Assembly: GCA_900472175.1 (NCBI GenBank)
Contig: UCHD01000024.1
Location: forward strand, 1-64,000
DNA length: 64,000 nucleotides
Direction: 5' to 3'
DNA from: Hyphomicrobiales bacterium
GTDB lineage: Bacteria; Pseudomonadota; Alphaproteobacteria; Rhizobiales; Rhizobiaceae
Under the pieces are notes generated by a model that had not been told where the DNA came from, made no database searches, and was given only the letters and a program-made list of their open reading frames with translations. A program made the translations under genes and the position numbers. Below are positions 36,948 to 43,123 of this stretch, one piece after another (positions within the stretch are counted from its first letter, which is position 1; every line of letters starts with the position of its first letter).

Positions 36948-38870
36948 TTATGCGGACTTCTTGCGGTCGTCCTCGTCCTTCACTTCTTCATAGTCGGCAT
37001 CGACGATGTCACCGTCGCGGGCTGCATCAGCCTGTGCATCGGCGTTGGCCGCTTCGGTCTGCTGCGATTCGTACATCGCCTGACCAAGCTTCATCGAGGC
37101 TTCGAGAAGCGTCTGGGTCTTGGTCTTGATGTCTTCAGCATCCGGCTCGGAGGCTTCAACAGCAGTCTTCAGCGAAGCGATCGCATCGGAGATCGCGGTG
37201 CGTTCGGCTTCCGTGACCTTGTCACCGAATTCCTTCAGCGACTTTTCCGAGGAGTGAATCAGGCTTTCGGCCTGGTTCTTCGCTTCAACGCCTTCACGGC
37301 GCTTCTTGTCGTTCTCGGCGTTGGCTTCGGCATCCTTGACCATCTTCTCGATATCCGCGTCGGACAAACCGCCCGATGCCTGGATCCGGATCTGATGTTC
37401 CTTGCCGGTGCCCTTGTCCTTGGCCGAAACCTGCACGATGCCGTTGGCGTCGATATCGAAGGTGACTTCGATCTGCGGAACGCCACGCGGTGCCGGCGGG
37501 ATGCCAACCAGGTCGAACTGGCCAAGCAGCTTGTTGTCGGCAGCCATTTCGCGCTCGCCCTGCGAAACGCGGATGGTCACGGCATTCTGGCTGTCTTCGG
37601 CCGTCGAGAAGGTCTGCGACTTCTTCGTCGGGATCGTCGTGTTGCGTTCGATCAGGCGGGTGAACACGCCACCGAGCGTTTCGATGCCGAGCGACAGCGG
37701 GGTCACGTCGAGCAGCAGAACGTCCTTGACGTCGCCCTGCAGAACGCCGGCCTGGATGGCGGCGCCCATGGCGACCACTTCATCCGGGTTGACGCCCTTG
37801 TGCGGCTCCTTGCCGAACAGCTGCTTGACGACTTCCTGTACCTTCGGCATGCGGCTCATGCCGCCGACCAGAACGACTTCGTCGATCTCGGCTGCGGTCA
37901 CGCCGGCATCCTTGAGGGCTGCCTTGCACGGTGCAACGGTGCGCTGAACCAGCTCATCGACCAGGCTTTCGAACTTGGCGCGCGACAGCTTCATGGTCAG
38001 GTGCTTCGGACCGGTGGCATCCGCCGTGATGAACGGCAGGTTGATTTCGGTCTGCTGCGACGAGGACAGTTCGATCTTGGCCTTTTCGGCAGCTTCCTTG
38101 AGGCGCTGCAGAGCAAGCTTGTCGTTCTTCAGGTCGATGCCCTGGTCCTTCTTGAACTCAGCTGCGAGGTATTCGACCAGACGCATGTCGAAGTCTTCAC
38201 CGCCAAGGAAGGTGTCGCCGTTGGTCGACTTCACTTCGAAGACGCCGTCGCCGATTTCCAGAACCGAGATATCGAACGTGCCACCACCCAAGTCGTAAAC
38301 GGCGATGGTCTTGCCGTCCTTCTTGTCGAGGCCGTAAGCGAGCGCTGCTGCGGTCGGCTCGTTGATGATACGAAGCACTTCGAGACCAGCGATACGGCCG
38401 GCATCCTTGGTTGCCTGGCGCTGCGCGTCGTTGAAGTAGGCCGGAACGGTGATGACGGCCTGCGTGACCTTTTCACCGAGATAGGATTCTGCGGTTTCCT
38501 TCATCTTCTGAAGGATCATGGCGGAGATCTGCGAGGGGGAATAACCCTTGCCCTGCGCTTCAACCCATGCGTCGCCGTTGTCGCCCTTGACGATCTTGTA
38601 CGGAACGAGGGCCTTGTCCTTTTCAACGAGCTTGTCGTCGTAACGGCGGCCAATCAGGCGCTTGACGGCAAACAGCGTGTTTTCAGGATTGGTGACAGCC
38701 TGGCGCTTGGCCGGCTGGCCCGCCAGACGCTCGCCATCATCGTTGAACGCGATGATCGACGGGGTGGTGCGTGCACCTTCTGCATTCTCAATGACCTTCG
38801 CGTCCTTGCCGTCCATGACGGAGACGCAGGAGTTGGTCGTTCCCAAGTCAATACCGATTACTTTAGCCAT
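36948..38870 (-). CDS. dnaK: Molecular chaperone DnaK
   Basis: DnaK is the ATP-driven Hsp70 of the cell. The phosphate loop [12 protein letters not shown] opens the ATPase domain; [19 protein letters not shown] and the linker [18 protein letters not shown] mark its later blocks. The substrate domain runs from about residue 390, and the C-terminal tail is acidic and Ala-rich. At 640 residues it is normal. It has a heat-shock-type promoter at 38981-39010 and a strong GGAGAG ribosome site. Confidence 0.99.
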
Positions 38871-38980
38871 GTCGTTCTCTCCTTGCAGCGGACTGTCAGA
38901 ACCCGGTCAGGCATTCATGCGACAGCCCCTAACGGGATGGTCTGTGGAATATTCGCAGCGATAGCTACGGTGATGGGCCG

Positions 38981-39010
38981 TATATAAGGACCAGTGTTTC
39001 GGACTGCAAG
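38981..39010 (-). promoter_or_regulatory. RpoH-type heat-shock promoter of dnaK
   Basis: On the minus strand CTTGCA (39010-39005) and CCTTATATA (38989-38981) are spaced as in alphaproteobacterial sigma-32 promoters. The predicted transcript starts near 38974, leaving about 100 bases of leader. Confidence 0.65.
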
Positions 39011-39297
39011 GCATCAGGACGCCACGAAGCCGAGGAAATCAACGTCCTTTTGACGAAGCATCGCGCGCCGTTACCGAAATCAGCAATCCTCTCTACAAGC
39101 CGATTGCGGTTCCCGCTTCAAAACAGCGGGGACATCCAGCAGCCATGACGGTACCGACATGATCGTCTGCTGCGGAAAAATCATTGCAGGTTCATTGGGT
39201 TGACCGGAAGATAGGCGTTTCACCGGCCTTTTTCCAGCCTGAATTTATCCCCGCCGCCTCTGCACCACGCACAATTGTCCGACTGAATTGAAAGCGG
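39011..39297. other. Intergenic region between dnaK promoter and toxin-like gene
   Basis: No gene or RNA is recognised here. It must contain the promoter of the toxin-like gene at 39298, but I saw no convincing -35/-10 pair. Only a weak AAAGCGG lies before the start codon. Confidence 0.3.
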
Positions 39298-40029
39298 ATG
39301 GCGTGGCCAATGATTTCGACAGAACCGGCAGACCTGAGCCTGCCACAACTGAGCTACCGGCAGGCGGCGATGGCCGTTGAAATTCAAGCGCTGACCTTAT
39401 GGTTAGAATGGAAGGCCGGTTTTCGCCCCGAGCAGCCGCGGGTGCCGGCCGGCAATCCTGACGGCGGGCAATGGGCCGGAGACGGTTCCGAAAACCGCCC
39501 GATCCGCGTCAGCCGCCGCGGGCCTCGTGGCGCGGGACAAGTCCGCATTCTCGACAGATGGCAGCCCGTCACGCCCGGGCAGGAAGCGCGACTGGCGGTC
39601 AGTATCGGCCGTATGCGGGAAGCGCTACGCGCAGTTCAAAGACGTGACCCGAACTGGCGGCCCACCCCGCAAGCCTACGAGACGGTCGAGGGGCTGATAC
39701 GAGCCAATGAATCCGTAGCACAGGAGGCGATGCTCCGCGCACTCCAGTTGAGGCTGCCGCGGACCGGCATCGGACCCTATGCGAAGGAATGGATTGCGGC
39801 GCCAGCAACCAACAGGCGGCTGACCAGGAGTGAACAGGCGGAAATCGACCGCATCGGCCGTACCTACGGATGCCACTGGTGTGGTATAAGGACATCGGGA
39901 ACCAAGCGCGGTCATTTTATTGGCGACCATCAGATCCCAAAAACAGTAGGCAGACCGAGTCGAATTTACCCACATTGCTGGTCGTGCAGTCAATCACAAG
40001 GTGGACTTTTATCGAAAAGGAGATTTTGA
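39298..40029 (+). CDS. Putative polymorphic-toxin-like nuclease with treble-clef zinc tip
   Basis: I do not recognise a named family for this 243-residue protein. Residues 42-59 contain FRPEQPRVPAGNPDGGQW, a linker common in Rhizobiales toxins and phage-related proteins. Residues 92-165 are helical and basic. The tip carries C192-x2-C195, D210-H211-Q212 and Y224-P-H226-C227-x2-C230, then QSQGG. This fits a zinc treble-clef HNH-like nuclease, inferred from spacing. There is no signal peptide or known export domain. GC falls from about 70% in 39421-39660 to about 47% in 39871-40029. A small gene starts four bases after its stop. A phage-derived or antitoxin-paired nuclease is the alternative. 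Confidence 0.6.
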   Translation: MAWPMISTEPADLSLPQLSYRQAAMAVEIQALTLWLEWKAGFRPEQPRVPAGNPDGGQWAGDGSENRPIRVSRRGPRGAGQVRILDRWQPVTPGQEARLAVSIGRMREALRAVQRRDPNWRPTPQAYETVEGLIRANESVAQEAMLRALQLRLPRTGIGPYAKEWIAAPATNRRLTRSEQAEIDRIGRTYGCHWCGIRTSGTKRGHFIGDHQIPKTVGRPSRIYPHCWSCSQSQGGLLSKRRF

Positions 40030-40033
40030 CACC

Positions 40034-40402
40034 ATGACCGTGCAATACCTGTCGATCGCTCCGGAATATGTGAGCTTTTACGTTGCAGGCCGTCGAAATG
40101 TCGATATTCCGACGCACATGGATAGGCGAGGTGTCCTTTCGTCAAAAGACTGCATTCTCATTCCCGCGCTCTATTGGAACGACGGGGACACGGACGTTAC
40201 GTTCGGACCAATCTCCGAGATCACGGAGGCAAGAAATCCGGATTTCGACGGCATTCTGAACACCCCCAACAACGAGATCATTTTATTTGATGCAAATAAC
40301 CCTCAATTCGCTGTTTCACGCGTACCGTCCGCGAAAACTCGGATTCGTGTCTGGATCGATCACCCCAGCGAGCCGGAAAACGTTATCATCGCCTGGGGAT
40401 AG
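40034..40402 (+). CDS. Putative immunity protein for the upstream nuclease-like toxin
   Basis: This 122-residue protein follows the toxin-like gene by four bases, with AAGGAG inside the toxin gene end, so translation is probably coupled. It appears beta-rich and acidic overall. The end RIRVWIDHPSEPENVIIAWG resembles the C-terminus of ComJ-type nuclease inhibitors, a tentative likeness by eye. The order toxin then small acidic neighbour, and the low GC shared with the toxin tip, are the usual signs of an immunity gene. I prefer the ATG at 40034 over one at 40001, which lies inside the toxin gene. Confidence 0.55.
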   Translation: MTVQYLSIAPEYVSFYVAGRRNVDIPTHMDRRGVLSSKDCILIPALYWNDGDTDVTFGPISEITEARNPDFDGILNTPNNEIILFDANNPQFAVSRVPSAKTRIRVWIDHPSEPENVIIAWG

Positions 40403-40469
40403 CGACTGTTCAAATTGCCTCGGTCATACATAGTCCCCATCGTCAGGAGCACGAAACGGCGGTTGCGGT

Positions 40470-42719
40470 TCAACCGCCGGTCAGGATGTCGAACAGGGTC
40501 GTGCGGCGGGTCGCACCGGTGGTCTCGCCGACATCGGCCGGTGGTGTAAGCCCGGAATTTGCCGCCTGCGCCGGCTGATCGAAATCCTGCGCGCCAGCCG
40601 TCTGTCCGCTGGCGGCGGGTGCTTGCGGAAATTCATCCGCCGCCCCATTGCCGAACGTTCCGGAGATAACATCGCCAACGCTTTCGGGCGCGGCCTGATT
40701 GTCGTCGAATGTCGGCTGGATCCCGGTCGTACCAAAGACCGGTGAAGGCGACAGGCCCTCGTGGGCCGCCGTCATGAAATCATGCCAGGCCTTGGCCGGA
40801 AGGCCGCCGCCAGTGACCTTCTTCATCGACTTGCCGTCATCATTGCCGAACCAGACGCCGGTGGTCAGGTTGCTGGTGAAGCCGACGAACAGCGCATCAC
40901 GGAACGACTGCGTCGTGCCGGATTTGCCGGCCGCCTGCCAGCCCTTCAGCCGGGCAGCCTTGCCGGTGCCATGATCGATCACACCGACCATCATCTGGTT
41001 CATCTCGCTGACCACAGCCGGATCGAGCACGCGCGGCGGATTGTCATAGGTATTTTCATAGAGGACAGTGCCATCGGCAGTCGAAATCCGCCGGATCACA
41101 TGCGGCGTCGCCTTGAAGCCGCCGTTCATGAACGGCGCATAGGCCGACGTCAGCTCGACCAGGCTGACCTCGGAGGTTCCAAGCGCGATCGAGGCATTGG
41201 ACTGCATTTCGGACTCGATACCGAGCCGGCGCGCCAGCTTGATGACATTCTGCGGCCCTACTTCCATCACCAACTGCGCGGCAATCGTGTTGAGCGAATT
41301 GGCCAGCGCATTGGCGAGCGACACCTCGCCGCGATATTTCTGATCGTAATTCTCAGGCGTCCAGTTGCCGATCCGGACCGGTGCATCGTTGCGGATCGAC
41401 ATCGGCGTGCGGCCGATTTCCATCGCGGCCGCATAGACGAAGGGCTTGAAGGCCGAACCCGGCTGGCGCCTCGCCTTGACCGCGCGGTCAAACTGGCTTT
41501 CGGCATAGTCACGGCCACCGACCAAAGCGCGGATGGCGCCGGTGCCATCGATCGAGACCAGCGCTGCCTGCGAAACATCCAGCTTCTGCCCGGAGGCGTC
41601 GAGGCTTTCAGCCAGCGTTTCCTCGGCCTTCTTTTCCAGATTGAGATCGAGCGTCGTATCGACGATCAGATCCTGGCTGATTTCGCCGACCATGCCCGGC
41701 AGCTGGTCCATGACCATGTCGGCAACATAATATTGCGCACCGGACCAAAAGCTCTTCGCCTTGGTCGGCGTCTGCGACATCGCAGTCTTGATCTCGCTGT
41801 CGGTGATGAAGCCTTCCTCACGCATGGCGCCGAGGACCACCTGAGCCCGCTCTTCCGCAGCTTTTGGATCACGCGCCGGCGACAGGCGCGACGGTGCTTT
41901 GAGCAGCCCTGCGAGCAGCGCGGCCTCCCCCAAATTCACATCCCGGGCGGACTTGTTGAAATAACGCCGCGAGGCCGCTTCGACACCATAGGCGTTGGAC
42001 CCGAAGAACACCCGGTTCAGGTACATCGCAAGGATCTGGTCCTTGGTGTATTTCTGCTCCAGCCAGACGGAGAGCAGCACTTCCTGCACCTTGCGCTCAA
42101 GCGTGCGCTCCGGCGACAGGAACAAATTCTTGGCCAGCTGCTGGGTGATTGTCGAGCCGCCCTGAACCATGCGCCCGGTGGTGACATTGGTCAGCATGGC
42201 CCGCGCCAGGCCGAGCGGATCGACACCGAAATGCGAATAGAAACGGCGGTCCTCGATGGCAATGACTGCCTGCGGAATGTAGGGCGACATGTTTTCGAGC
42301 GATAGTGCCTCGCCGCCCGTTGCGCCGCGATTGGCGATGATATCGCCACTAACGGCCAGGATCTTGACGTTCGGCGGCCGGTCCGGAATGGCCCAGGTGG
42401 TGGCGCTCGGCATGCGCGACCCATAATAAAGCACCAGGCCGCCGACACCGATGGCGCCCCAGATCCCAAGAACGACGCACCAGTAAACCAGTGACCGGAT
42501 CAGGCCCGTCAGGCCACCACCGCCGCCGCCACGCGAACCGCCACGCCCGCGATCCTTTCGTGGCTTGGCCTTCTTGGCCGCAGGTTTTGACCCAGCGGAT
42601 TTTCTGCCGCCGCCACTGACACGCTCACCGGCATTCATGCGCAGTTCGCCGTCATCACGACCGCGTCCACCCTCGAAGGAAGGTTCTATCCTCTGCTCTG
42701 AAGTTCGATTTCCTGCCAT
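40470..42719 (-). CDS. Class A penicillin-binding protein (PBP1A family)
   Basis: This 749-residue bifunctional enzyme polymerises and cross-links peptidoglycan. A basic Gly-rich cytosolic tail precedes one membrane helix (LVYWCVVLGIWGAIGVGGLVL). The transglycosylase domain has EDRRFYSHFGVDPLG and GGSTITQQLAKNL; the transpeptidase domain has the SxxK motif in GSAFKPF, SLN and KSGTT. A Gln/Pro/Ala-rich tail ends the protein. The start at 42719 (MAGNRTSEQRIEPSF) is chosen over an upstream ATG. It is convergent with the toxin/immunity pair. Confidence 0.93.
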   Translation of the reverse strand: MAGNRTSEQRIEPSFEGGRGRDDGELRMNAGERVSGGGRKSAGSKPAAKKAKPRKDRGRGGSRGGGGGGLTGLIRSLVYWCVVLGIWGAIGVGGLVLYYGSRMPSATTWAIPDRPPNVKILAVSGDIIANRGATGGEALSLENMSPYIPQAVIAIEDRRFYSHFGVDPLGLARAMLTNVTTGRMVQGGSTITQQLAKNLFLSPERTLERKVQEVLLSVWLEQKYTKDQILAMYLNRVFFGSNAYGVEAASRRYFNKSARDVNLGEAALLAGLLKAPSRLSPARDPKAAEERAQVVLGAMREEGFITDSEIKTAMSQTPTKAKSFWSGAQYYVADMVMDQLPGMVGEISQDLIVDTTLDLNLEKKAEETLAESLDASGQKLDVSQAALVSIDGTGAIRALVGGRDYAESQFDRAVKARRQPGSAFKPFVYAAAMEIGRTPMSIRNDAPVRIGNWTPENYDQKYRGEVSLANALANSLNTIAAQLVMEVGPQNVIKLARRLGIESEMQSNASIALGTSEVSLVELTSAYAPFMNGGFKATPHVIRRISTADGTVLYENTYDNPPRVLDPAVVSEMNQMMVGVIDHGTGKAARLKGWQAAGKSGTTQSFRDALFVGFTSNLTTGVWFGNDDGKSMKKVTGGGLPAKAWHDFMTAAHEGLSPSPVFGTTGIQPTFDDNQAAPESVGDVISGTFGNGAADEFPQAPAASGQTAGAQDFDQPAQAANSGLTPPADVGETTGATRRTTLFDILTGG

Positions 42720-43123
42720 GTCGGGGTGGGTCTGCTCCAGCTTGTCTTGGGCAGCGCAGACGGCATACACGCCGCAACGCACGATTTCGCCCCGTGCGAT
42801 GAAGTGTAAATGCGGCGATTTAAGGGGGCGTTAACTGCCCGCTATCACCCGCCGCCAAATCACAGATGCGCAAGCGCACTTGCGGAATGCGGCAAGAATC
42901 GCCATGTAGTAGTCCTGTGCCCACTGCGGTGCCTGAAGCAAATCCATCGCTTCAGCGCGGCCAACTCAAATCCGCGCACCAGATTTTTGAAACATGCGGC
43001 AAGCATGTCCTTAATTCTCTGATCCGACTGCTACCCTTCTGTTAACCGTTTCACCACGGGAAGGTCGCCTTTCTGGCGTTAAGCGTTCCAGGGACCTCGA
43101 ATAACGATCCAAGGAGACCATCA
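42720..43123. other. Intergenic region upstream of the PBP gene
   Basis: No gene is recognised in these 404 bases. The region must contain the promoters of the PBP gene (minus) and of the 48-residue gene (plus); no unambiguous box was seen. GGAAGG with CGTTA near 43070 looks like an EcfG promoter but has the wrong spacing (13 instead of 16-17). Confidence 0.3.

Follow-up and report, generated by a model that had tools for sequence, protein, structure and literature searches.

A putative head-derived polymorphic toxin and its ComJ-fold partner beside dnaK in a Hyphomicrobiales bacterium

Head-borne toxins and the cassette beside dnaK

MuF toxins carry a variable C-terminal toxin on a protein of the head/packaging module, often encoded directly after the portal gene, and a small immunity-like gene comes next. 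According to the accessible part of Jamet et al. 2017 (PMC5576092), they occur mainly in Firmicutes and their phages, and delivery with phage DNA has been proposed. A head-borne route for MuF proteins is put forward in the accessible parts of both Zhang et al. 2012 (PMC3482391) and Jamet et al. 2017. The portions consulted of the literature on RcGTA-like gene transfer agents (GTAs), PMC9662315 among them, do not mention a toxin built into the head.

The window is the whole 64,000-nucleotide stretch of DNA that was analysed, from a soil bacterium, and the locus is a pair of genes, ORF1 and ORF2. The ORF1 family shares with MuF toxins, as the accessible sources describe them, a head-protein carrier, a variable toxin tip, and a small immunity-like gene downstream. 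Scans of ORF1 and of a set of tagged relatives found no MuF domain. The carrier is instead a tagged module that is fused to a portal or prohead protease or stands alone, and many of its relatives are found in alphaproteobacteria, within RcGTA-like clusters, rather than in Firmicutes. The features are as follows.

39016..40469, no strand: segment inserted between dnaK and pbp1A (homology breaks against pair-free genus genomes)
39298..40029, + strand: ORF1, 243 aa, probable start 39310 (M5), putative tagged orphan polymorphic toxin (homologues, alignment, dN/dS)
39340..39417, + strand: N-terminal helix, model residues 11-36, ORF1 residues 15-40 (AlphaFold2 model)
39427..39762, + strand: carrier/pretoxin module, residues about 44-155, with tag, beta hairpin, and helical hairpin (loci with other C-termini, secondary structure)
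39433..39474, + strand: QPRVPAGNPDGGQW tag, residues 46-59 (invariant or nearly so in the A1 and A2 alignments; pLDDT)
39772..40026, + strand: nuclease-like C-terminal tip, residues 159-243 (alignments, AlphaFold2 model, fold search)
39850..40402, + strand: putative exchange unit, covering the last part of the tip and ORF2 (block divergence against some relatives, lower G+C)
40017..40022, + strand: AAGGAG within the end of ORF1, possible ribosome-binding site of ORF2 (from the sequence)
40034..40402, + strand: ORF2, 122 aa, putative ComJ-fold immunity protein (homologues, pairing, fold match)

Both genes lie on the + strand between dnaK (36948-38870, - strand, start at 38870) and the penicillin-binding-protein gene pbp1A (40470-42782, - strand), the two neighbours being named by eye from the sequence. 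Four bases separate the ORF1 stop from the ORF2 start, and re-reading the sequence returned the coordinates, protein lengths, and gap given in an earlier note on this DNA. The true ORF1 start is probably 39310 because many homologues begin at M5. AAGGAG in the last ORF1 codons could serve as the ribosome site of ORF2, and a promoter/terminator scan of 38871-40480 found neither element. ORF2 is acidic, as the earlier note had it (pI 4.7, versus 10.9 for the basic ORF1). G+C content is 66% in the ORF1 front, 53% in the tip, 51% in ORF2, and 60% in the whole window.

The genus was sampled with 26 genomes (Pararhizobium, from its named relatives). Twelve carry a strong ORF1 homologue, in every case beside dnaK, and the same 12 carry ORF2; one other, G005, has a weak ORF1 match around the tag only. 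In 13 of the 14 genomes without the pair, dnaK and pbp are adjacent and neither ORF is present, while the fourteenth (G017) has no pbp within the 3.25 kb fetched. Homology to the window stops at 39013-39015 in 13 of these 14 and at 39023 in one, and of the 13 whose fetched stretch includes pbp, 12 pick it up again at 40448-40470. These breaks flank the segment and bear out the proposal that it was inserted beside dnaK. The order dnaK-toxin-immunity-pbp also occurs in eight named genomes from genome_contigs (L077-L083 and L085: Pararhizobium, Shinella, and Rhizobium sp. Root1334).

At E <= 0.001, ORF1 has 146 homologues and ORF2 has 65. Among eight uninterrupted ORF1 copies (six Pararhizobium, two Shinella), dN/dS is 0.10-0.24 in 27 of 28 pairs, and the remaining pair is nearly identical (dS 0.006); the homologue numbers and these ratios indicate that the two genes are more than chance frames. 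The tip considered separately gives 0.04-0.20 against the window copy in the six of seven comparisons that are computable, and ORF2 copies give 0.09-0.17 in 12 of 14.

Divergence is unevenly distributed along the locus. Nucleotide identity to G023 is 97% in dnaK, 92% in the intergenic region, 94% over ORF1 codons 1-59, and 97% over codons 60-158, then 82% over codons 159-243, 72% in ORF2, and 94% in pbp. The corresponding values for G019 are 96% (dnaK), 93%, 96%, 93%, 84%, and 73% (ORF2). Front and tip differ less clearly in comparisons with G006 and G010 (front 83-91%, tip 79-80%, ORF2 71-73%) and with G016 and L081 (front 92-95%, tip 85%, ORF2 86%), and G014 and L077 show no such contrast. 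Because identity falls as a block where G+C also drops, we read the tip and immunity gene as having been swapped, or jointly diversified, as one unit.

The C-terminal tip and its ComJ-fold partner

The tip contains C192-x2-C195, D210-H211, C227-x2-C230-S231, and Q234-G235-G236, and the residues singled out by the earlier note (C192, C195, D210-H211, P225-H226-C227, C230) are all in place. C192, H193, C195, D210, H211, P225, C227, C230, S231, Q234, and G235 are invariant in an alignment of 16 homologues. Two CxxC knuckles flank the DH pair (C188, C191, D206, H207, C223, and C226 in A2 numbering, +4 for ORF1), and their invariance in the 88 rows of alignment A2 is that of rows largely picked for this motif. 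A2 comprises 84 of the 120 listed homologues (of 146), three locus proteins, and the window copy; proteins without both motifs were left out, as were some frame-broken, overlong, or redundant ones. Tyrosine replaces the third knuckle cysteine, C227, in L085:8001-8729, L135, and protein P0028; in L085 and L135 the ORF1 frame is also interrupted ahead of the tag, with a full-length ORF2 alongside.

Family searches do not name the tip. Neither ORF matches Pfam or NCBIfam near a curated cut-off, and neither has a PHROG match below E 0.1. For HNH families specifically, ORF1 has no Pfam or NCBIfam match, and the PHROG "HNH endonuclease" appears at E 0.2. Fold searches with the ORF1 model returned mostly helical chance matches. 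Two entries of T4 endonuclease VII (PDB 1e7l and 2qnf) are the sole listed matches on the tip, at weak Z, with residues 1-66 of the enzyme overlapping ORF1 residues 173-235. T4 endonuclease VII has C-x2-C, DH, and C-x2-C in the same order and at near-equal spacing.

Homologous tips also end proteins of other kinds. No ORF1 match was found in 50,697 phage records, and plasmid records gave five: one whole Shinella copy and four tip-only matches (39-43%) at the end of a Priestia megaterium DNRLRE/RHS protein, in Priestia flexa, in a Paraburkholderia caribensis RHS protein, and in a Streptomyces protein. NCBIfam models confirmed that the P. megaterium and Paraburkholderia proteins contain RHS domains; the Streptomyces tip frame had no match. 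These RHS proteins share the C-terminal tip at about 43% identity; unlike the short tagged carrier of ORF1, theirs is a long YD-repeat carrier, and their downstream genes, judged by eye, do not resemble ORF2. The P. flexa copy (L189:5001-5995) is interrupted early, and the gene downstream of it, which resembles the one behind the P. megaterium tip, is annotated whole. With RHS proteins ending in the tip and T4 endonuclease VII as its weak listed structural match, the HNH-like zinc tip of the earlier note holds, the model does not lack a candidate metal or nuclease site, and the tip is likely an HNH/EndoVII-type nuclease.

An ORF2 homologue lies downstream in 33 of 35 HNH-tip loci, counted as loci whose ORF1 homology reaches the tip, with the look-alike pairs L010/L011, L015/L016, L018/L019, and L024/L025 included and L101 (28%, other C-terminus) and L181-L185 left out. 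The count is 19 of 21 in viral_contigs, where the contigs of L009 and L014 end no more than about 40 bases past the tip, and 14 of 14 in genome_contigs. Several loci (e.g., L003, L004, L008, L039, L077, L084) have two or three ORF2 copies. Behind the Streptomyces tip, an ORF of 131 aa matches the ORF2 profile over its last 124 residues (probability 95, E 2.5e-8). A housekeeping nuclease was rejected, as the partner is missing only at the two contig ends among the 35 tip loci; the homologues do not show a housekeeping first gene that lacks the second. The toxin/immunity layout first seen in gene order is repeated across loci, and ORF1 and ORF2 are very probably a polymorphic toxin and its immunity protein.

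ComJ of Bacillus subtilis (PDB 4mqd) is the top fold match of the ORF2 model, at 14% sequence identity, in agreement with the ComJ-like second protein of the earlier note. In the viral structure library nothing matched ORF2 at E <= 0.001, and its best family match (E 0.0074) is an unrelated-looking model. Pfam holds a ComJ model. An alignment of 78 ORF2 members (A3: 46 of the 65 homologues, 31 locus proteins, and the window copy) matched seven Pfam families at E <= 1, and ComJ is absent from these. On the strength of the model, ORF2 is placed as a ComJ-fold protein outside the ComJ sequence family. DUF6934 was rejected as an assignment: 10 of the 78 members match (best E 0.0015), and the window ORF2 scores 15.2 against a cut-off of 27 bits. 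One ORF2 homologue, P0150, bears the UniRef name "DarT domain-containing", yet it has no DarT family match. Imm-ComJ immunity proteins are listed with Tox-ComI in the accessible part of Zhang et al. 2012 (PMC3482391), whereas the partner of ORF2 is an EndoVII-like C2-DH-C2 tip.

The tagged carrier and gene transfer agent heads

The front of ORF1 is marked by the QPRVPAGNPDGGQW tag, of which Q46, P47, R48, P50, G52, G56, G57, and W59 are invariant in the 16-homologue alignment. The AlphaFold2 pLDDT is below 50 over most of the tag, which is probably disordered, and the tag is the sole match of its DNA pattern within the window genome. At loci whose ORF1 match ends between residues 132 and 159, other C-termini follow, and tagged proteins as a whole carry many: HNH, Colicin_E5, RNAse_A_bac, and unnamed tips. 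A conserved front with exchangeable C-terminal tips is the architecture of polymorphic toxins, and the tip block diverges alone against G023 and G019. Pfam, NCBIfam, and PHROG searches found no known export domain in ORF1, as the earlier note had reported for secretion domains.

The same module is fused to procapsid proteins. In L002 (1573-3531), one frame encodes a portal (Phage_portal, E 1.7e-85), the tag, and an HNH tip, and an ORF2 homologue follows; L011 and P0101 likewise join portal, tag, and HNH tip, with the portal part of P0101 cut by the contig end. A 611-aa frame in a Holosporaceae MAG (L111:2020-3852) joins a portal (2e-85) and tag to a Colicin_E5 ribonuclease domain (5.9e-9). Further single-frame portal-tag proteins occur in L046, L018, L009, L035, and L013. 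A whole prohead protease is fused to the tag in L034, L021, and L026 (twice), and protease pieces join it in L034, L021, and L028 (the last just at the cut-off). A CdiA-type RNase A domain ends the tagged protease piece of L021 and the tagged proteins of L017 and L106. The linker described by the earlier note is present; that note missed that it is part of a carrier module which also occurs fused to portal and protease proteins, and that relatives of the gene lie inside GTA head clusters.

In L034, L021, and L028, tagged toxin cassettes stand in rows within GTA-like head clusters. Where they lie between protease and capsid, most come after the protease gene or after a repeat of its 3' part, a pattern expected when new tips displace old ones. 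Another tagged cassette (L102:8962-10563) is flanked by short repeats of the capsid gene 3' end, and in L039:1-7019 a stretch ending YYQIEWPPRARRYETGVYADEVLQHYFPPSMAVIANIAAG occurs in four copies between tagged and immunity genes.

The genes of L005 run from TerL and portal through the tagged toxin and an ORF2 homologue to protease, capsid, and tail. Family matches of the encoded products are HK97 portal, S78 protease, HK97 capsid, "GTA-gp10", the Rcc01695 family, and "phage/gene transfer agent baseplate hub". These GTA-named structural genes, in the order TerL-portal-protease-capsid-tail-hub, class L005 as RcGTA-like, and it shares head/tail order and GTA-named families with alphaproteobacterial type I agents as set out in the accessible part of PMC9662315. 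Four L005 head proteins served as probes of the fetched flanks. TerL or portal plus protease or capsid was found at 11 of 58 genome_contigs loci (7 partial; 40 none, 8 of these being dnaK-site loci) and at 24 of 75 viral_contigs loci (21 partial; 30 none), shares that describe loci picked by ORF1 similarity, some possibly prophages rather than GTAs, and are no census. The fusion of the tag module to portal and protease suggests head packaging, and the carrier module very likely originated in phage or GTA heads.

Across the order, the strict tag pattern occurs in 24 of 397 genomes, the window genome included, and in none with a reversed control. Among the 23 other tagged genomes, 19 have a GTA-type capsid (E <= 1e-70), and the tag lies <=10 kb from the capsid in two; co-occurrence of tag and capsid over the order showed no clear difference, relative to 57 untagged genomes that were hand-picked, not random, and is not counted here as support. 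Within the genus, 25 of 26 genomes have a GTA-type capsid, the window's included. G014 has no match, and G018 has a 57-residue remnant, the match being larger in the other 24. In the GTA-like cluster of the window genome (L180), capsid and baseplate hub were matched, and the other genes were seen as open frames only. This cluster has no fitting tag, since the window tag is the only pattern match in its genome.

Competing explanations and biological meaning

It is reasonably probable that the pair consists of a functional polymorphic toxin of head origin and the immunity protein that goes with it. The four tip cysteines would hold zinc, and D210-H211 with S231 or Q234 would form the metal or catalytic site of a beta-beta-alpha, zinc-knuckle HNH/EndoVII-type nuclease. 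ORF2 would bind and neutralise the tip, protecting the producer and its kin. The ORF1 front (helix, disordered QPRVPAGNPDGGQW tag, helical hairpin) probably arose at the C-terminus of procapsid proteins, as a passenger on the portal or the prohead protease, in RcGTA-like gene transfer agents and prophages. Such a passenger would travel inside the head, might be released there by prohead-protease cleavage, and would reach the next cell together with the DNA, to the harm of recipients without the immunity gene. The copy in the window would have left a head cluster and now stands between dnaK and pbp1A.

An unlikely alternative, although the best placed of them, is a GTA- or prophage-derived relic that has lost delivery and is kept mainly so that ORF2 protects against the toxins of relatives. 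Frequent decay favours it. Stops or frame changes interrupt ORF1 in 5 of the 12 genus genomes (G002, G007, G014, G016, and G022), G014 also lacking the third knuckle cysteine; G001 was counted as uninterrupted, its only stop being at residue 3, ahead of the conserved start. ORF2 has meanwhile multiplied to 29 copies in the 12 genomes, at one to five per genome (25 full length without a stop, one with an internal stop, three short), and L078, L081, L082, and L085 have broken ORF1 frames next to a full-length ORF2. However, uninterrupted ORF1 is under purifying selection, its tip included, and a dead toxin would not stay under such selection; these selected, uninterrupted tips favour a working toxin.

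That the pair acts only inside its own cell, as a toxin-antitoxin or abortive-infection system, is improbable. Two small coupled genes would suit it, as would the absence of VipB from the window genome and of any export gene recognised by eye among the ORFs at 33-46 kb. The fusion of the tag to portal and protease, the tips shared with RHS proteins, and the block divergence of tip and immunity gene are instead traits of polymorphic toxins. HK97-type phages encode a packaging or DNA-processing nuclease next to their terminases, and HNH-type tips do occur within head clusters (e.g., L002-L006, L008). That the tip is such a head nuclease rather than a toxin is nevertheless very improbable, as Colicin E5 and CdiA RNase A domains are found on carriers of this kind too and the partner of the HNH tip has a nuclease-inhibitor fold. 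An effector acting in trans with a conventional secretion system (T6SS, CDI, or T7SS) is the least credible reading: RHS proteins elsewhere carry related tips, yet ORF1 has no known export domain, VipB (PF05943) is confined, among the 26 genus genomes, to G002 (interrupted ORF1) and G025 (no ORF1), and its absence from the window genome speaks against a T6SS effector.

For a working head-derived toxin, the best candidate route by which the window copy would be delivered today is packaging in trans, by GTA-like particles that its own genome encodes, because the tag has been kept; taken alone, this step has somewhat less than even odds. The literature searched, which covers few subscription papers and no preprints, contains no mention of the tag peptide and nothing that treats gene transfer agents together with MuF. 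Titles and abstracts of the listed papers, within the same coverage, report no toxins built into GTA heads, and prior reports may exist.

The locus pairs a C2-DH-C2 tip, matched by no Pfam model, with a ComJ-fold immunity protein, and QPRVPAGNPDGGQW provides a searchable tag for head-borne toxins without a MuF domain. GTAs are usually viewed as cooperative gene-sharing particles, and the reason for their upkeep is an open question. A more speculative proposal is that alphaproteobacterial GTAs double as weapons, with exchangeable, QPRVPAGNPDGGQW-marked toxin tips on the portal or protease C-terminus, orphans such as the window ORF1, located elsewhere with ComJ-fold immunity arrays, packaged in trans, and uptake limited to immune kin. 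If this is true, toxin tips on GTA portal and protease proteins and the immunity genes adjacent to them would give GTAs a competitive function and a kin filter. The findings suggest that virus-like gene-transfer particles may deliver toxins as well as DNA.
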